Source of the DNA: Sporolactobacillus sp. Y61 | Lineage (GTDB): Bacteria > Bacillota > Bacilli > Bacillales > Sporolactobacillaceae | DNA length: 64,000 nt | Direction of reading: 5' to 3' | Assembly (NCBI RefSeq): GCF_040529185.1 | Contig: NZ_CP159510.1 | Location: 248,001-312,000, forward strand | Shown: one piece after another, positions 2,651 through 63,826 of the stretch | Layout of the letters: each line of letters opens with the position of its first letter | Position numbering within the stretch: position 1 is the stretch's first letter | The notes under the pieces: generated by a model | The model's input: only the letters and a program-made list of their open reading frames with translations | Databases searched by the model: none | Told to the model about the DNA's origin: nothing | Made by a program: the position numbers and the translations under genes

Positions 2651-2815
2651 CCGTCTATTCATCTGATCGTATGCTTAACCGAGTCCCCTAACTGATAAGA
2701 GCGGATCCCGGAAAGCCTCCGTCTGTATTTTTCATATTGGGGTAAATCGTCCCTTATTTTTGACCATACGACTTCAGATTTGCCCTCTGTTTTGGGAGAA
2801 AATAATTTCAGAACT

Positions 2816-3744
2816 TCTTCAAATACGTAGATGAATTCATTGCCGATGATCCTGCGCTTTTTCTCAGTATCACCGACATCCGCCAGCTTGTCCAAGAAAC
2901 GCTTTTGGCATCGACAGGGATAAAGTTCATTTGAAAACGGTTTTTGAATGTATCGATGACGCCTTCCGCTTCCCCTTTTCGGAGCAGTTCGTGATCGACA
3001 AAAACCCAGGTAAGCTGGTCGCCGATCGCTTTGTGGACAAGCGTTGCCGCAACCGATGAATCGACTCCACCGCTCAGCGCGCACAGCACTTTGCGGTTGC
3101 CGACACTCTTGCGGATCTCTTCAGCTTTTTCATCGAGAAAATGTTCCATTGACCAGGTGGCATTCGCGCCACAGATCGAAAAGATAAAATTGCTCAGCAG
3201 ATCATTGCCGTACTTTGTATGACGCACTTCCGGGTGATACTGAACGGCATAGACATTTTTCGCTGCGTTGCTCATAGCCGCAACCGGGCAGGACTCGCTT
3301 ATGGCGAAGACTTCGAATCCTTCCGGCGGTGTCTTAACCAGATCGTCGTGGCTCATCCAGACCGACTGCCCGGCAGGCTGTCCTTTAAAGAGCAGGCTGC
3401 CTGTATCGGTAATGATGTCTGCCTTGTCATACTCACGATGCACCGCGCGCTCCACCTCAGCGTCAAATTGCCTATTGATCAGGTGCAGGCCGTAACAGAT
3501 GCTCAGAATCGGAACACCCAGATCAACAATCGCCGGATCACACTTTGGTGCCCCCCTCACCGTACACACTGCTTGGACCTCAGTAGAAACTGATGCCCGT
3601 CGGCTGCTTCTTTCTGATCTGTGCTGCTGTGAGCGTATTCGGAAGGAGTTCGCTGTATACGCCTAAATCACGGATGCGCCTGGCAATCAGTTGATTGTAC
3701 TGGCCGGAAAAGTCCATCACAATTATCAAGTCGTTCTGATCCAT
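2816..3744 (-). pseudogene. Truncated, frameshifted second copy of GMP synthase
   Basis: The sequence aligns along most of its length with the intact guaA at 7585-9126. It holds the glutaminase part ([21 protein letters not shown]) and the start of the ATP-pyrophosphatase domain ([20 protein letters not shown]). The start ATG 3744 has the same upstream context as guaA. Lesions: an in-frame TGA at 3580-3582, a one-base change in the C-run at 3551-3556 (a G-run in the coding sense), and a one-base loss near 2905 that moves the frame to [20 protein letters not shown]. Similarity ends after [11 protein letters not shown] (about 2816), so the dimerisation domain is absent. The tail frame running to 2659 is unrelated to GuaA. 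Many substitutions relative to guaA show that it is not a recent duplicate. Confidence 0.9.
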
Positions 3745-6196: not shown

Positions 6197-6450
6197 AAAA
6201 AAACGCCCCCTCTGAAAAGGGACGAAAATTCCGCGGTACCACCCTCGTTGAGCGCTCAGCCAGCTCTCCACTTGTTCCGTTAACGGCAGCAACCGTTTTC
6301 TGCTACTGGCTTGAACGAAGACGGCGTTTGCAGAAAAACTCAGGGAAGTAATTCATGACTGCCTTTGTGCCGGCTCGCATCGTCCGCCGGCTTTCTGGAA
6401 CAGGGAAACAGCCACTACTCATTCCAATCATCGCGATCAATGTGAAATTA
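6197..6450 (-). promoter_or_regulatory. T-box leader (tyrosine) of tyrS
   Basis: The conserved T-box sequence, GGGTGGTACCGCGGAATT on the minus strand, lies at 6227-6245. It is followed by a terminator hairpin and a run of Ts (6197-6224). Stem I carries a TAC tyrosine specifier candidate in GAATTACTTCCC (about 6346-6357). Uncharged tRNA-Tyr would stabilise the antiterminator and allow tyrS expression. Confidence 0.95.
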
Positions 6451-7449: not shown

Positions 7450-7485
7450 AAAAAACACCCTGCCAGATCATTCATTCTGGCAGGG
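7450..7485 (-). terminator. guaA terminator
   Basis: A 9-bp perfect stem, CCCTGCCAG / CTGGCAGGG, is followed on the minus strand by a T-run. The stretch 7228-7449 upstream of the antitoxin remnant holds no gene that I can see. It has one palindrome, GTGTATATACAC, at 7349-7360. Confidence 0.85.
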
Positions 7486-7584
7486 ATCTTGGCAGGAACC
7501 ATTAAATTTTAGCAGTTTTTATCCGCTTTACATCACAATAAGCCTTGTGAAACAGGCATTCTCTCTCTAATTTGTATTTTCCTT

Positions 7585-9126
7585 TTATTCCCACTCAATT
7601 GTGGCCGGCGGCTTGGAGGTAATATCATACACAATACGGTTGACGTGCTCCACCTCATTCACGATTCGGTTCGATATTTTTTCGAGAACCTCCCATGGGA
7701 TGCGTGCCCAGTCGGAGGTCATGCCGTCGATTGAGGTGACAGCGCGGATGGCGATACAGTGATCGTAGGTACGTCCGTCCCCCATAACGCCGACACTCTG
7801 GATGTTCGGCAGCACGGTGAAGTACTGCCAGATATCGCGGTCGAGACCGGCTTTTTTGATTTCCTCACGCAGAATGGCATCTGATTCACGGACAATCGCC
7901 AGCTTGTCCTCGGTGATCGCGCCGAGTACGCGGATGCCGAGGCCCGGTCCCGGGAACGGCTGGCGCCAGACGATATCGTCCGGCAGGCCGAGCTGGGTGC
8001 CGAGCTCGCGTACCTCATCCTTGAACAGCGTATTCAGCGGTTCAATCAGCTTAAATGTCATATCTTCAGGAAGCCCGCCGACATTATGATGCGACTTGAT
8101 GGTCTGTGAGGAGCCGCCCGCGCCGCTCTCTACCACATCCGTATAGAGCGTGCCCTGAACAAGAAACGAGATATCCTTAAGCTTGCTTGCTTCTTCTTCA
8201 AAAACATGGATGAATTCATTGCCGATGATTTTGCGCTTTTTCTCCGGCTCGCTGACATCCGTCAGCTTGTCCAGAAAGCGCTGTTTCGCGTCGACAAAGA
8301 TAAAATTCATATGGAAGCGGTTTTTGAATGTCTCAACAACGCCTTCTGCTTCGCCTTTGCGGAGCAGACCGTGATCGACAAAAATGCAGGTCAGCTGATC
8401 GCCTATGGCCTGGTGTACCAGAGCTGCAGCAACCGAAGAATCAACTCCGCCGCTCAATGCACAGATTACTTTCTTATCGCCGACAGTGGACCGGATCTTC
8501 TCCACCTGCTGATCGATGAAGTGTTCCATCGACCAGTTCTTTTCCGCTTTACAGATGTGAAAAATAAAATTATTCAGAAGATCATTCCCGTATTCTGTGT
8601 GGCGGACTTCAACGTGGTACTGCACTCCGTACAGATTTTTTGCGACATCACTCATCGCCGCCACCGGACACGATGCGCTTTTCGCATCGACTTTGAATCC
8701 TTCCGGCGGCGTTTTAACGAGATCGCCATGGCTCATCCAAACCGTCTGCTTTGCCGGCTGCCCCTGGAAAAGGGCACTGTCCGTATTCGCGGAAATTTCT
8801 GCTTTACCATATTCTCTGTGGGAGGCATGTGCGACATCCGCCCCGAAGTGCAGGCTCATCAGTTGCATCCCGTAACAGATACCGAGAATCGGAATCCCGA
8901 GGTCATAGACCGCCGGATCGACTTTCGGCGCGCCCTCCCAGTAGACACTGCTCGGCCCGCCGGAGAAGATGATCCCTTTCGGCCTTTTTTCTCTGATCTG
9001 TTCCGCCGTCATCGTATTCGGCAGAAGTTCACTGTATACACCAAGATCACGGACACGTCTTGCGATCAGCTGATTATACTGACCGCCGAAGTCCATGACA
9101 ATGATCAAATTCTCAGGTTGTCCCAT
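7585..9126 (-). CDS. guaA: GMP synthase (glutamine-hydrolysing)
   Basis: Converts XMP to GMP with glutamine and ATP, the last step of guanine nucleotide synthesis. The class I glutamine amidotransferase domain comes first (nucleophile Cys in [11 protein letters not shown], then [10 protein letters not shown] where the usual motif is YHPEV). The ATP-pyrophosphatase P-loop follows ([12 protein letters not shown]), and the C-terminal dimerisation domain ends TIEWE. The length, 513 aa, matches the family. Start ATG 9126 is taken because [20 protein letters not shown] aligns with the family N-terminus; the longer frame does not. Note H-V-E in place of H-P-E at the triad site; the decayed copy at 2816-3744 keeps HPEV. 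Confidence 0.95.
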
Positions 9127-9252
9127 CCCCGTTTGCACCCCGCAATTTTTTATATAAAGAATAAGGATGCACCTCGCTCGAAGGCGTCCTCTTGTTTCCA
9201 CTGATTTTGTATTACGTACCTATTTTAACAATCCGGCGCTGCTGCGGCAACC

Positions 9253-15051: not shown

Positions 15052-15080
15052 TTGACATTTTTAATATTTACTGCTATCTT
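15052..15080 (+). promoter_or_regulatory. Promoter of the aromatic leader and tkt-aroF-aroB operon
   Basis: TTGACA (15052-15057) and TATCTT (15075-15080) are 17 nt apart. This would start the transcript about 20 nt before the leader peptide. Confidence 0.7.
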
Positions 15081-15107
15081 ATTAACACTAACTGATTGGG
15101 AGTTTTG

Positions 15108-15179
15108 ATGATGGTTCATGCAGAACAAGGGTGTTGTTTTCAAATGAATCGATACTATTACTTTGGCTGGTTTATTTAG
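15108..15179 (+). CDS. Aromatic leader peptide (attenuation)
   Basis: A 23-codon frame begins at ATG 15108 with GGGAG 5 nt upstream and ends at TAG 15177-15179. The last eleven residues read MNRYYYFGWFI, so three Tyr, two Phe and one Trp occur in the final eight codons. An internal in-frame ATG (15144) with AAGGGTG upstream is an alternative start. The peptide is followed at once by alternative hairpins and lies upstream of three genes that make aromatic precursors. I infer a regulatory role through ribosome position, not a function of the peptide itself. Confidence 0.8.
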   Translation: MMVHAEQGCCFQMNRYYYFGWFI

Positions 15180-15317
15180 GTGTTTGCACCTCGCCCGCAG
15201 CAGATGCAAACACTTCCGTTTGCATCTGTGCCGGCCAAAGCAGTTTCGCATGTGTCAGAAAAACGAGCCGCACAGATGTTGTCCAGACAGATAAGGACAA
15301 TAAACTGTGCGGCTTTT
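15180..15317 (+). promoter_or_regulatory. Transcription attenuator with five mutually exclusive segments
   Basis: Segments by perfect or near-perfect pairing: S1 15180-15188 (GTGTTTGCA), S2 15202-15213, S3 15218-15235, S4 15267-15278, S5 15305-15313 (CTGTGCGGC, then TTTT). Possible stems are S1:S2 (9 bp), S2:S3 (AGATGCAAAC with GTTTGCATCT, 10 bp), S3:S4 (CATCTGTGC.GGC with GCCGCACAGATG) and S4:S5 (9 bp plus Ts). A ribosome at the stop codon would cover S1, allow S2:S3 and hence the S4:S5 terminator. A ribosome stalled on the aromatic codons would leave S1:S2, then S3:S4, and allow read-through. Confidence 0.75.
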
Positions 15318-15344
15318 CCCGGTTCAGAGTAAGAAATCGAAAAA

Positions 15345-15380
15345 GGCCCACGGTTTATTGAAAACCGTGGGCCCTTTTTT
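15345..15380 (+). terminator. Second terminator upstream of tkt
   Basis: A 12-bp stem, GGCCCACGGTTT / AAACCGTGGGCC, is followed by C and six Ts. It is stronger than the S4:S5 hairpin and lies between it and the tkt start. I found no clear alternative partner for it. Confidence 0.85.
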
Positions 15381-15434: not shown

Positions 15435-17462
15435 ATGAAGTTTGACGAAATTGACGAAAGTTGTGTGAATGCGATACGTATGCTGAGCTGTGAATGCATT
15501 GAACGTGCCGGTTCCGGACATCCGGGACTTCCTCTCGGTGCCGCTCCGATGGCCTACGTGCTGTGGCGCAATCATTTACGTCTGAATCCGGATGATCCGG
15601 AATGGTTTGATCGCGACCGCTTTGTCCTGTCGGCCGGTCATGGCTCAGCCATGCTTTACAGTCTGCTGCATTTGTCGGGATTTGATCTAACCATGGATGA
15701 TTTGAAACATTTCCGCCGGTTCCGCAGCAGAACGCCCGGACACCCGGAACGGGGAAGCGCGCCCGAAGTTGAGGCAACAACTGGTCCACTGGGCCAGGGC
15801 CTTGGAATGGCAACAGGTATGGCTATGGCTGAAGCCCATCTGGCAGCTGTCTGTCACTCAGGCGAGGAGGTGATCAATCACCGGACATTCGTTCTGTGCG
15901 GAGACGGAGATCTGATGGAAGGCGTTTCCTATGAAGCTGCAAGCCTCGCCGGTCATCTGAAACTGAACAAATTAATGGTCCTGTATGATTCGAACAGCGT
16001 CTCACTTGATGGCCGGGCAGACCGATCATTTTCTGAAGATGTACGCGGCCGTTTTAAAAGCTGCGGCTGGAATTATCTGCGGGTGGAAGACGGCAATGAT
16101 CTGTCCGCCATCGACGCGGCGATTGAACGCGCAAAACAGCAGAGGAATGGACCGACGCTGATAGAAGTCCGGACGGTCATTGGTTTCGGTGCGCCGGGTC
16201 AGGGAACAAATCAGGTCCACGGCACCCCGCTCGGAGAAAAGGGATTGGCAGAACTTCGCCGCCGGCTGCACTGGGATCATCCTGAATTTACTGTTCCCCG
16301 GAACGTTCGGGAACGCTTCAGGCAGTGCATCGGCCAACGGGGAGGGCAGGCTGAAGCTGAATGGAAGTGCCGGGTGAATCAATGGGCGGCAGGTCATCCG
16401 GATAAAGCCGAAAAGTTAACGCAGGCATTGAACCATCAGCTGCCTCCGGACTGGAAAGAGGGACTCCCGCGCGAGGTGACCGGTTCCGAGTCCGGACGCG
16501 TGACCAGCCATCGCATCATTCAGATTCTGGCAGATAAGCTTCCCTTTCTGTGGGGCGGATCAGCCGATCTCGCCAGTTCGAATAAAACAAATATTGAACG
16601 CAGCGATTTGTTCCGTGCGGAGCGCCGTGAGGGACGAAATATTGCCTTCGGTGTCCGTGAGTTTGCTGAAGCATCGGCGCTGAACGGGATCGCGCTTCAC
16701 GGCGGCAGCCGGGTATTCGGCGGCACCTTCTTCGTTTTTTCCGATTACATGCGTGCCGCCATCCGCCTGGCAGCCCTTCAGAAGCTGCCTGTGATCTATA
16801 TTTTCACCCACGATTCGATTGCCGTTGGAGAAGATGGTCCGACCCATGAACCGGTGGAACAGCTGATGAGTCTGCGGGCGATGCCCGGTGTGTCGCTCAT
16901 CCGTCCCGCTGATGCGAATGAGACCGTCGCAGCCTGGGAAGCAGCAATAGAGACCTCAGACCGGCCAACGATTCTCGCCCTGTCCCGCCAGAAACTGCCT
17001 GTACTGAGCGGAACCGCGGAACAGGCTGAAGAAGGGGTCCGGCACGGCGGTTACGTGCTTTCCCCGCAGGAGGGGGCATGGCCCGAGGGGATTCTGATCG
17101 CCACCGGATCGGAAGTCCGGCTCGCTATCGGTGCACAAAAGTTGCTGCGCCAGTCCGGGCATGATGTTTCCGTAGTATCGATGCCCTGTTTCGACCGGTT
17201 TGAGAAACAGAGTCAGGCCTATCGTGAATCGGTTCTTCCTTCCACCGTGCGCCGGCGGATGTCGATTGAAATGGGGGCGACATTCGGCTGGGAACGTTAT
17301 GTCGGCCTGCAGGGCATCTCCCTTGGCGTCGACACATTCGGCGCCAGCGGATCTGCAGAAGATCTGATGAATCATTTCGGTTTTACAGAAAATCATATTG
17401 TCACGCTTTACACGCAGGCAGCCGAGAAGCCTGTCAACCTGGTTCATCCGCAGGTTGGCTGA
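15435..17462 (+). CDS. tkt: Transketolase
   Basis: A thiamine diphosphate enzyme that exchanges two-carbon units between sugar phosphates and can make erythrose 4-phosphate. The 675 aa follow the family order: the N-terminal ThDP domain (ERAGSGHPGLPLGAAPMAYV, GDGDLMEGVSYEAASLAGHL), the pyrimidine domain (FGVREFAEASALNGIALHGG, then THDSIAVGEDGPTHEPVEQL) and a C-terminal domain. The RBS GGAGTGAAG precedes ATG 15435. Its place in front of DAHP synthase suggests a dedicated supply of erythrose 4-phosphate. Whether another tkt exists in the genome cannot be seen here. Confidence 0.95.
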   Translation: MKFDEIDESCVNAIRMLSCECIERAGSGHPGLPLGAAPMAYVLWRNHLRLNPDDPEWFDRDRFVLSAGHGSAMLYSLLHLSGFDLTMDDLKHFRRFRSRTPGHPERGSAPEVEATTGPLGQGLGMATGMAMAEAHLAAVCHSGEEVINHRTFVLCGDGDLMEGVSYEAASLAGHLKLNKLMVLYDSNSVSLDGRADRSFSEDVRGRFKSCGWNYLRVEDGNDLSAIDAAIERAKQQRNGPTLIEVRTVIGFGAPGQGTNQVHGTPLGEKGLAELRRRLHWDHPEFTVPRNVRERFRQCIGQRGGQAEAEWKCRVNQWAAGHPDKAEKLTQALNHQLPPDWKEGLPREVTGSESGRVTSHRIIQILADKLPFLWGGSADLASSNKTNIERSDLFRAERREGRNIAFGVREFAEASALNGIALHGGSRVFGGTFFVFSDYMRAAIRLAALQKLPVIYIFTHDSIAVGEDGPTHEPVEQLMSLRAMPGVSLIRPADANETVAAWEAAIETSDRPTILALSRQKLPVLSGTAEQAEEGVRHGGYVLSPQEGAWPEGILIATGSEVRLAIGAQKLLRQSGHDVSVVSMPCFDRFEKQSQAYRESVLPSTVRRRMSIEMGATFGWERYVGLQGISLGVDTFGASGSAEDLMNHFGFTENHIVTLYTQAAEKPVNLVHPQVG

Positions 17463-17517: not shown

Positions 17518-18515
<998 letters not shown>

Positions 18516-18519
<4 letters not shown>

Positions 18520-19601
18520 TTTTGGAAGTCTCTGTAAATCTGCCAGACAAAACCTATAAGGTGCTGATTCACCGCGGCCTGATTCATCACCTGGGAAATC
18601 GGCTCAGCCGGATCTGGACACCCGGGAAGGTCGCTGTCATCAGCGACAGTACGGTTGGCCCCCTTTATCAGGATCAGGTCATTCGCCAGCTGCGAACCGC
18701 GGGCTTTCTGGCGACCGGTCTCAAGGTACCGGCCGGAGAGTCTTCGAAAAGCTGGGAGACAGCTGTCACACTCTACCGGGCACTGATCGATCATCATTTT
18801 ACACGATCAGACGGCATAGTCGCTTTGGGTGGTGGCGTGATCGGTGATCTTGCCGGTTTTGTCGCCTCAACTTATATGCGCGGCATCGCATTCGTCCAGG
18901 TCCCGACATCACTTCTGGCACAGGTCGACAGCAGCGTCGGTGGTAAGACGGCGGTTAACCTCGATACAGGCAAAAATATAGTGGGCACGTTTTATCAGCC
19001 TGATGCCGTCTTTATCGATCCCGACACTCTTGAAACCCTCCCGGATCGTTACATCGCCGAAGGATACGCGGAAATTGTCAAAATGTCTGCCCTGTCAGGC
19101 GGTTCATTCTGGGAGACAACCGGACAGATCCATCACCCGGAAGACATTGTTGCCCGGGCAGAGGTGCTGATTCAGAAAAGTGTCGCTTTTAAAGCCCGTA
19201 TCGTCATTGCAGACGAGAAGGAATCCGGTCTCCGGCAGATTCTTAATTTTGGCCACACGATCGGCCATGCGATAGAGCTTCAGGCCAAAGGCAGACTGGC
19301 TCACGGCGAAGCCATCAGTATCGGTATGGCAAGACTGTCACAACTGTTCGAGAACTACGGCCTGACCGAATCCGGTACCTCCCGCAGCCTGATTCAGCGG
19401 CTGCAGGAAGTGGGACTGCCGCTTGACTCTTCATTGATTGGCACTTCGGACTTTTACCATAAAATTATTTCGGACAAAAAGAATCACGGCGGCCGCCTCA
19501 ATCTTGTCTATTTAAAGAAGCCGGGTGAACCGGCCCTGTATCCTGTGCCGACTGACCAGCTCCAATTGTTTTTCTCGGGAAAGAATTCCCTGGAATCTTA
19601 A
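18516..19601 (+). CDS. aroB: 3-dehydroquinate synthase
   Basis: Cyclises DAHP to 3-dehydroquinate using NAD and a metal ion. The motifs GGGVIGDLAGFVASTYMRGI and VPTSLLAQVDSSVGGKTAVN are diagnostic, and metal-ligand histidines lie in LNFGHTIGHAIE and AHGEAISIGM. The length, 361 aa, is normal. The ATG overlaps the aroF stop (ATGA), so the two are probably translationally coupled. A terminator follows, ending the three-gene operon. Confidence 0.96.
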
Positions 19602-19980: not shown

Positions 19981-20460
19981 ATGAATTATGACTATCAGAA
20001 TCCTTATCACATGGACCGGAATCCGAATGACATGACTCAGAACCCCTATTATAGGAACATGAATCCGGATCCTATGAATCCAGGTTACATGAATCCGGAT
20101 CCTATGAATCCAAGTCACATGAATCCGGGTCATATGAATCCAAGTCACATGAATCCGGGTCATATGAATCCGGGTTATATGAATCCAAGTATGAATCCAG
20201 GTCAAGTGAATCCGGGTCATATGATGCCCAATCCGAATAGTCATCCTGCACATCTGAAAGATCGCGTCCTCAGTGCCGTTGCCCCTGTTCTCCAGTATGG
20301 GATGAAAGAAGCCATGTACACCTCTCATCATCACGCAATGACAGAAGTCGCCGCAATCACGTATCTCATGGGCATGGGCTACGATCCCCGGATGGCAAGA
20401 CAGATTGTCGAGTCATGGGAGATCGATGAAGCCTTTTATCCACGTCAGGAAAATCGTTAA
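19981..20460 (+). CDS. Met-Asn-Pro repeat protein, possibly a spore or surface protein
   Basis: A 159-aa protein. Residues 1-26 are rich in Asn, Pro, Tyr and Met. Residues 27 to about 85 are some twelve pentapeptides of the form MNP-(D/G/S)-x, such as MNPGH and MNPSH, encoded by near-identical 15-nt units. Residues 90-159 form a non-repetitive helical domain (LKDRVLSAVAPVLQYGMKEA, AAITYLMGMGYDPRMARQIV). There is no signal peptide or membrane segment. GGAG lies about 12 nt before the ATG, a long gap. I do not recognise a family. Asn/Pro/Tyr-rich repeats recall coat proteins of spores, which is only a guess. Confidence 0.7.
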   Translation: MNYDYQNPYHMDRNPNDMTQNPYYRNMNPDPMNPGYMNPDPMNPSHMNPGHMNPSHMNPGHMNPGYMNPSMNPGQVNPGHMMPNPNSHPAHLKDRVLSAVAPVLQYGMKEAMYTSHHHAMTEVAAITYLMGMGYDPRMARQIVESWEIDEAFYPRQENR

Positions 20461-63655: not shown

Positions 63656-63826
63656 TAAAAAATAACAGCCTTCTTCGGAAAGAAGAAGGCTGTTTCACCA
63701 GGTTTCTTCTTATCCCTCAGACTCCTTGTTTGGTCTGCTGGAATTAGCACCTTGTCGCCTGCTTTCGGCGACGGTTGCTGAAGCGTCATCGGGCCAGTCC
63801 CTCGACTTCTCTTGATAAGAATGGTT
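63656..63826 (-). promoter_or_regulatory. SAM-I riboswitch (S-box) of the met operon
   Basis: On the minus strand: CTTATCAAGAGAAGTCGAGG, GACTGGCCCGATGACGCTTC followed by AGCAACC, then AAGGTGCTAATTCCAGCAG and CTGAGGGATAAG, all canonical S-box parts. A 12-bp terminator (AACAGCCTTCTT / AAGAAGGCTGTT) with a T-run follows at 63656-63694. Confidence 0.97.

Follow-up and report, generated by a model that had tools for sequence, protein, structure and literature searches.

Amino acid control in Bacillota is usually described in terms of T-boxes and DNA-binding regulators, and the aromatic genes of Bacillales are usually under T-box or TRAP control. In the trp, phe and his attenuators of enteric bacteria a leader peptide with regulatory codons is combined with alternative helices and an intrinsic terminator, and the his leader relays through six segments. 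The aroF gene of C. glutamicum is also controlled by attenuation. Among Bacillota and their relatives, leader-peptide attenuation is known or predicted for hisS-type genes, as stated in the accessible part of PMC2965389. The S. aureus ilv-leu leader is likewise a case of leader-peptide attenuation in Bacillales and has genetic support, but as described in the available portion of PMC5794164 it differs from the leader reported here in concerning branched-chain amino acids only and in having another RNA layout. By its description in the accessible text of PMC8632094, uORFC-13-1 resembles the present leader in controlling aroF through a leader peptide, in this case in Acholeplasma; it is reported to carry Phe codons and to occur in Acholeplasma and environmental sequences only. 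A leu/phe leader of Lactococcus is catalogued in the part of PMC2864571 that was available. The accessible part of PMC5593968 reports sRNA_2410, a 195-nt RNA with two transcripts and an unstated function, and the words 'leader' and 'attenuat' are absent from its main text according to term counts. Ribosome-mediated attenuation is already known; the layout and the spread described below would probably be unexpected to a specialist, and no description of this attenuator family was recognised in a full-text search that mostly covered journals outside subscription.

The DNA analysed here, in the following called the window, is a stretch of 64,000 nt from the 3.22-Mb chromosome of Sporolactobacillus sp. 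Y61. It contains tkt, aroF and aroB behind a structured leader (Table 1), with aroD upstream of the leader in divergent orientation. The initial annotation had taken this leader for an attenuator that senses aromatic starvation. The elements named by it were found again: a Shine-Dalgarno-like GGGAG (15098-15102) followed after 5 nt by the ATG at 15108 (a second ATG lies at 15111), a 23-codon ORF ending NRYYYFGWFI with its TAG stop at 15177-15179, S1 beginning flush against this stop codon at 15180, the pairings S1:S2, S2:S3, S3:S4 and S4:S5, all among the inverted repeats, and the three downstream genes, which scored above NCBIfam cut-offs. The absence of a T-box from the leader also held, as the T-box model was silent here and matched at 6215-6440. 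S1 to S5 are present as listed, but the count of five segments was too low, because S0:S3b, S5:S6 and S6:S7 had gone unlisted and the whole element extends to about 15380. Similarly, S4:S5, given as the last hairpin with Ts, does end in four Ts (15314-15317, the first of them inside the stem), but it is probably not the main terminator, as S6:S7 has the longer U tract.

Translation of the leader is predicted from the ribosome binding site, the start and the conserved frame. The score of the candidate promoter is weak when taken alone, as shuffled sequences yield 0.8 such hits per region; by eye, six of the seven relatives have TTGACA and the remaining one has TTGACT. A terminator scan gave one hairpin before tkt, at 15345-15373 with six Ts on the plus strand, and its reverse on the minus strand; the scan was limited to loops of 3-8, and S4:S5 with its 10-nt loop lay outside its reach. 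The observed score of each of seven helices was reached by none of 2000 dinucleotide shuffles, a comparison that is not blind, since the boundaries were picked on the real sequence. Compared with 100 shuffled versions, the folded leader RNA is more stable by 8.4 sd (z -8.4).

Table 1. Features of the tkt leader and the genes behind it, in window positions; inverted repeats are given with both arms.
Feature	Position	Strand	Basis or remark
Candidate sigma-A-type promoter TTGACA-17-TATCTT with TG	15052..15080	+	Motif scan, 10/12
Predicted leader peptide ORF MMVHAEQGCCFQMNRYYYFGWFI-stop	15108..15179	+	23 codons; start 15108 or 15111; kept in 10 genus loci
Predicted sensor codons Tyr-Tyr-Tyr-Phe-Gly-Trp-Phe	15153..15173	+	Sequence and conservation
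S0	15161..15170	+	Inverted repeat; mainly Phe-Gly-Trp codons; can pair with S3b when ribosome-free
S1	15180..15191	+	Inverted repeat and duplex energies
S2	15201..15213	+	Inverted repeat and duplex energies
S3	15218..15231	+	Inverted repeat and duplex energies
S3b, partner of S0	15231..15240	+	Inverted repeat and alignment; just 3′ of S3
S4	15266..15284	+	Inverted repeat and alignment
S5 and short U run	15295..15317	+	S4:S5 is hairpin T1 (putative weak terminator and/or anti-antiterminator)
S6	15340..15360	+	Inverted repeats and duplex energies; pairs with S5 or S7
S7 and U tract	15361..15380	+	S6:S7 is predicted intrinsic terminator T2; repeat and terminator scan
Repeat S0:S3b	15161-15170/15231-15240		90%
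Repeat S1:S2	15180-15191/15202-15213		Inverted-repeat search
Repeat S2:S3	15201-15211/15218-15228		Inverted-repeat search
Repeat S3:S4	15223-15231/15270-15278		Inverted-repeat search
Repeat S4:S5	15266-15275/15305-15314		Inverted-repeat search
Repeat S5:S6	15298-15317/15341-15360		20 nt, 85%; helix joins both hairpins
tkt, transketolase	15435..17462	+	TIGR00232 above cut-off
aroF, type I-beta DAHP synthase	17518..18519	+	NF006421 and TIGR01361 above cut-off
aroB, 3-dehydroquinate synthase	18516..19601	+	TIGR01357 above cut-off

The leader combines an ORF, the segments S0 to S7 and two tandem hairpins, and this arrangement is conserved in relatives. It is very probably a ribosome-mediated transcription attenuator, and it may well respond to the position of the ribosome from two sides. 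A ribosome at the stop codon would cover S0 and S1, S2:S3 would form, followed by S4:S5 and S6:S7, and transcription would stop. If the ribosome instead pauses on one of the Tyr, Phe or Trp codons, it would cover S0 and leave S1 free to pair with S2; S3 would then pair with S4, S5 would be freed for S6, both hairpins would be undone and tkt-aroF-aroB would be transcribed. In an untranslated leader S0 would pair with S3b, S3 would be withheld from S4 and the operon would be off. If this is true, 'no translation' and 'translation finished' are both OFF states. It is plausible that the leader senses Tyr first. In its leader peptide with regulatory codons, its alternative helices and its intrinsic terminator the tkt leader is like the enteric trp, phe and his attenuators; unlike them, it has eight segments plus S3b, two tandem hairpins that are coupled and a host in Bacillota, and its read-through would need S1 to be free and, as proposed, S0 to be covered.

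Within Sporolactobacillus, the leader element was present in all ten genomes with an aroF orthologue, the own genome included. The comparison of tkt rests on seven genus relatives (69-74% identical, leader in 7/7), with 79 other loci of 46-59% identity left out. A genome of the same species (G098) also carries the leader. In G005 the leader is present and aroF (77%) is intact, and tkt has decayed; a 111-residue frame at 1100-1460 of this locus (L037) fuses N- and C-terminal parts of tkt and is followed by a frame that by eye is aroB-like. Alignment of the tkt upstream regions of relatives, which had been proposed as a check, supported the starvation-sensing reading: the Tyr/Phe/Trp run was found in all ten tkt leaders, and the stems paired throughout with several double changes. 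G005 alone has one Tyr changed, to Asp, and the G009 leader has an altered end, YYYFDWLSFS. In a MAFFT alignment of the ten rows, the share of paired cells was 99.0% for S0:S3b, 99.1% for S2:S3, 91.7% for S4:S5 and 89.1% for S6:S7, and both sides had changed in 9 of 51 pairs, a count attained by 6 of 500 column shuffles. On the unfitted tkt alignment, double changes fell on 2 of 18 pairs of S4:S5 and 5 of 12 pairs of S6:S7. In the same ten rows S3:S4 was paired to 94.2% with two doubly changed pairs, and S5:S6 to 88.3% with none. For the antiterminator structure of the tkt group, the number of doubly changed pairs was unexceptional against column shuffles (140/500), and S1:S2 was shifted by one base in two rows. 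The value of 45% paired for S1:S2 on the MAFFT alignment was discarded as an artefact of this shift, and duplex energies were used instead.

In a swapped-partner test, the duplex energy of the own partners was compared with that of partners shuffled among loci; exact S5/S6 duplicates were removed from both locus sets and G598b from the first. The permutations ignore phylogeny, the windows for S0 to S3 are fixed offsets, and the loci come from searches with models that include S0:S3b, S2:S3 and S4:S5. In the first set (51 of 56 loci) z was -11.3 for S0:S3b, -7.4 for S1:S2, -8.0 for S2:S3, -5.5 for S3:S4 and -13.4 for S5:S6, with controls at 0.3 (S5:S7), 0.5 (S4:S6) and 0.8 (S1:S3); the control S3:S5 reached -3.4 in this set and 2.1 in the second. 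The second set (46 of 52 loci) gave -8.7, -9.3, -4.9, -6.8 and -13.8 for the same five helices and -0.2, 0.7 and -0.8 for the same three controls; having been found with a model that holds S0:S3b, S2:S3 and S4:S5, it is independent only for S1:S2, S3:S4 and S5:S6. The values for S4:S5 (-14.4 and -15.1) and S6:S7 (-17.4 and -21.9) are high by construction, as these hairpins were located by stability. In S5:S6 the letters differ and the pairing stays, with CAATAAACTGTG/CACGGTTTATTG in the window and ATCTAAATGG/CCGTTTAGAT in G654. In alignment A8 (44 rows), which was fitted to its own structure, S0:S3b was paired to 97.2% and 6 of its 10 pairs had changed on both sides. S0 also retains a partner in every codon-swapped locus displayed for the second set.

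The preference of S5:S6 for its own partner in both locus sets bears against a plain five-segment attenuator, in which S4:S5 would be the sole regulated terminator and the hairpin at 15345-15373 an unregulated second one. That reading accounts for the stability of S4:S5 and for the at least four Ts in a row found there in 10/10 tkt leaders, but a run of five or more Ts after S4:S5 occurs in only 4/10 tkt, 4/14 aminotransferase/ADTH and 2/32 other leaders, and a strong unregulated terminator before tkt would be expected to shut the operon. It is therefore considered unlikely. Under the coupled arrangement of both hairpins, S6:S7 is probably the terminator outside Sporolactobacillus, because T runs after S4:S5 are rare there, and S4:S5 probably holds S5 away from S6; the tkt leaders may terminate at T1 as well. 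S6:S7 was located by requiring a T-rich tail, and its own T count is no test of this role.

For each ribosome position, folding was modelled at the moment at which S4 has emerged and S5 is still to come. In equilibrium folding, group means had S3:S4 mainly with the ribosome on the sensor codons. The window's own leader kept S2:S3 at every ribosome position and did not switch, and plain equilibrium folding was rejected as proof of switching for this reason. In a stepwise model S1:S2 persists once formed, S3:S4 is counted at five or more pairs and the ribosome edge is set at +12. When the A site was placed six codons upstream of the stop, S3:S4 formed in all 10 tkt leaders, in 11 of the 14 aminotransferase/ADTH leaders and in 28 of the 31 others. 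The corresponding counts were 3/10, 1/14 and 4/31 without a ribosome and 2/10, 2/14 and 6/31 with the ribosome at the stop codon (0, 1 and 5 at edge +14). At 9-16 codons before the stop, between 4 and 9 of the 10 tkt leaders and between 3 and 13 of the 31 others formed S3:S4, and the window's leader did so at all those positions; the upstream side was sharp only in the aminotransferase/ADTH leaders, with 0-2 of 14 at 11-16 codons. As far as such models go, they back the stop-codon side of the gate well and the upstream side partly.

Covariance model R1 detected a second member of the family in these genus genomes, ahead of a PLP aminotransferase gene (NF005588, 579.6 versus 576). In G001, a member (L073) precedes a gene for 2-amino-3,7-dideoxy-D-threo-hept-6-ulosonate (ADTH) synthase (NF005556, 319 versus 241); the next gene, incomplete at the end of the locus, has a weak match to 3-dehydroquinate synthase II (65.9 bits, cut-off 375). 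As an aroF match is absent in G001, the same switch appears to sit there on a non-homologous route to dehydroquinate. The ADTH synthase of this locus is of the archaeal type and lies alongside the DHQ-synthase-II-like gene. Model R2 matched strongly in 14 of 15 genus genomes (10 tkt, 13 aminotransferase and 1 ADTH leaders), G010 being the only one of the 15 with no R2 match. Among 11 genomes from other genera of the own family, R2 gave matches at E 0.02-0.09 in five and none in six. R1 matches outside the genus (L074-L076, E 2.7e-4 to 0.015) look like chance and were set aside; nine further genomes had R1 matches at E of 0.09 to 0.5. In the own genome a third and weaker member (38.7 bits, R3) with the leader MTKRWFKGQIGYYSFYYFR lies before an MFS transporter gene (L253). 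Five weak third R2 matches, with E within 0.004 to 0.03, were seen at G001:C2:86120-86326, G002:C1:1118170-1118375, G008:C4:75753-75967, G009:C64:8836-9052 and G004:C41:109718-109939; they are alike in length and may be further members, for example counterparts of the MFS leader.

In the class, R2 matched 33 of 398 genomes, 30 of them beyond the own order; the weakest of these matches (E 8e-4 to 0.004) are doubtful. The covariance model R3, built from 44 rows, matched in 260 of 395 sampled genomes and 62 of 80 genera of the order of G432, with up to five matches per genome. That order is presumably Lactobacillales, as judged from five loci with matches to RF02863, an Enterococcus family, and from the presence in one of its families of RF01743, which among 14 named controls occurred in Lactococcus lactis only. 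In the phylum sample R3 matched 3 of 348 genomes, one being the own genome and the other two belonging to the order of G432; in the own order it matched 4 of 199, all from the own genus. A transfer into Sporolactobacillus would be a guess. The R2 class matches in G543, G677 and G235 were left out, as were G569 (without a leader, E 8.4e-4) from the later locus sets, G598b (no T1 found) from the 51-locus energy set and the 31-row folding group, the unplaced, incomplete loci L244 and L259 from the gene-class and second energy sets, and the duplicate places L234, L239, L251 and L252.

The gene behind each of 108 leaders was classed by blastp against 15 references; these loci comprise the best-scoring matches and the matches of 18 hand-picked genomes and are a non-random sample. 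Most frequent were TrpX-like binding proteins (42), aroE (25), aminotransferases (14, of which 13 from Sporolactobacillus and one from the other order), tkt (10) and aroF (4). The remainder were family-3 binding proteins (3), true TrpX (2) and one each of ADTH synthase, aroC, MFS, D-LDH-type, ilvA, ilvB, ilvE and a Liv-like binding protein. In the order of G432, members lie before aroE-aroF, aroC and TrpX-like binding proteins. Four leaders with Ile/Leu/Val codons, ending NIISIIR, LLISVIR, AAIISIIR and VIITSIIR, precede ilvA, ilvB, ilvE and the Liv-like binding protein; the three ilv products score above an NCBIfam cut-off, and the Liv-like protein stays below the cut-off of its match (162.5 versus 477; Pfam Peripla_BP_6). 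A leader with Trp codons (…RTWQNWRR, L254) precedes TrpX (620.7, cut-off 390), whereas five scored binding proteins behind Tyr- or Phe-leaders reach 274-332 and lie under this cut-off. The nearest solved structures of two such proteins are 6hni, a tyrosine binder, and 3lft. These Ile/Leu/Val and Trp leaders before matching genes argue for amino-acid-specific sensing, and the sensor codons would be a replaceable module, with Tyr/Phe codons in front of aromatic genes, Ile/Leu/Val codons in front of ilv genes and Trp codons in front of trpX. Two loci do not fit: the other true TrpX locus (G369), where the leader is of the Tyr type, and the locus of a D-2-hydroxyacid dehydrogenase gene, which follows a Phe-codon leader (…AVFFNSNFR). 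Leader codons may predict transporter substrates, as with the Trp leader before TrpX and the Tyr/Phe leaders before proteins under its cut-off.

An in-frame leader ORF was found in 108/108 loci by a script that demanded one. In seven of these leaders (L200, L255, L257, L260, L268, L272 and L280) the usual Arg is followed by three more codons (...FRYSL, ...FRSCL, ...FRVCL), so that the ribosome would finish inside S1. In TnaC, a nascent peptide stalls the ribosome together with a free amino acid. A comparable arrest, in which the leader peptide itself stalls the ribosome, perhaps with a free amino acid, would explain the strong conservation of the C-terminus as peptide and the Arg end in 90/108 leaders. 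However, the Ile, Phe/Asn and Trp versions have the common architecture with different peptides, and the RF02863 consensus structure shows the stretch with the Ser and Arg codons paired to S3/S3b, by which the conservation of these codons can be explained. Peptide arrest is accordingly judged quite improbable.

Two Rfam families cover parts of the element. The model of RF02863 (sRNA_2410) spans S0 to about T2 in the aroE-aroF leaders (L195-L199, 65.0-80.5 versus 61), and an aroC leader scores 73.5; L195-L199 and L270 are above gathering, and the window's leader (L069) was unmatched even at E 0.5. The two stems of RF04312 (trpB ncRNA motif) align with S2:S3 and S4:S5. The trpX leader L254, at 68.7 versus 59, was the sole one above gathering among 26 loci, and the window was unmatched in the Rfam 15 scan. 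In contrast to the present leaders, RF04312 matches begin at S2 and leave the leader ORF, S0 and S1 outside the model, and RF02863 is filed as a small-RNA gene. A free-standing small RNA with incidental downstream genes, as the Enterococcus label of RF02863 suggests, would agree with scores above gathering in 5 of 16 loci scanned and with the discrete 195-nt RNA of E. faecium in the accessible part of PMC5593968. This is very improbable, as the genes behind the 108 leaders are mostly aromatic biosynthesis or TrpX-like genes and the codons track the gene class. RF01743 (leu-phe_leader, Lactococcus) is similar in that leuA-like and permease genes (labels by eye) are preceded by leader peptides containing Leu codons, but by eye these codons are next to or within the first stem, and there is a single terminator after it. 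It was below gathering at the window leader, and R3 matched none of the leaders in 12 leu-phe loci, with two weak matches elsewhere in L293; membership in the present family was rejected, and these leaders are a different RNA. As to a T-box, TRAP or metabolite riboswitch, the usual aromatic-gene controls in Bacillales notwithstanding, such a control is next to impossible here, since Rfam 15 has no match at the tkt leader although its T-box and SAM models do match at other places in the window. Of 13 non-orthologous loci scanned around a more distantly related DAHP-synthase gene, six have T-boxes nearby, and all six of these are on the opposite strand to the gene.

Taken as a whole, the evidence tilts slightly towards a widespread modular family that gauges ribosome position from both sides, with S0 covered and S1 free, and that is re-addressed by swaps of codons and S3b. 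If true, two Rfam entries, one of them filed as small RNA, would be pieces of one family, and that 'small RNA' would be re-explained. With matches in 260 of the 395 genomes sampled from a single order, such a leader-peptide family would add a major control layer, and its members would form a naturally occurring set of re-addressed attenuators in which the reading of ribosome position could be studied.

Elsewhere in the window, a T-box leader (6215-6440) precedes tyrS (TIGR00234, 4844-6166, minus strand). Tyrosine supply thus seems to be watched twice about 9 kb apart, with this T-box serving tyrS and the leader peptide serving tkt-aro. On the minus strand at 2808-3569, a partial frame of GMP synthase (guaA; 264.6 bits versus 400, profile 57-279 of 512) is accompanied by an apparently full-length guaA frame at 7585-9201, the 3′ end of which is touched by a match to the Listeria sRNA family rli38 of Rfam (7450-7599, minus strand, 64.7 versus 49 bits). 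A SAM riboswitch (S box) lies at 63707-63821 on the minus strand (90.5 bits). Behind aroB, an ORF at 19981-20460 contains many tandem MNPxHMNP-like repeats.
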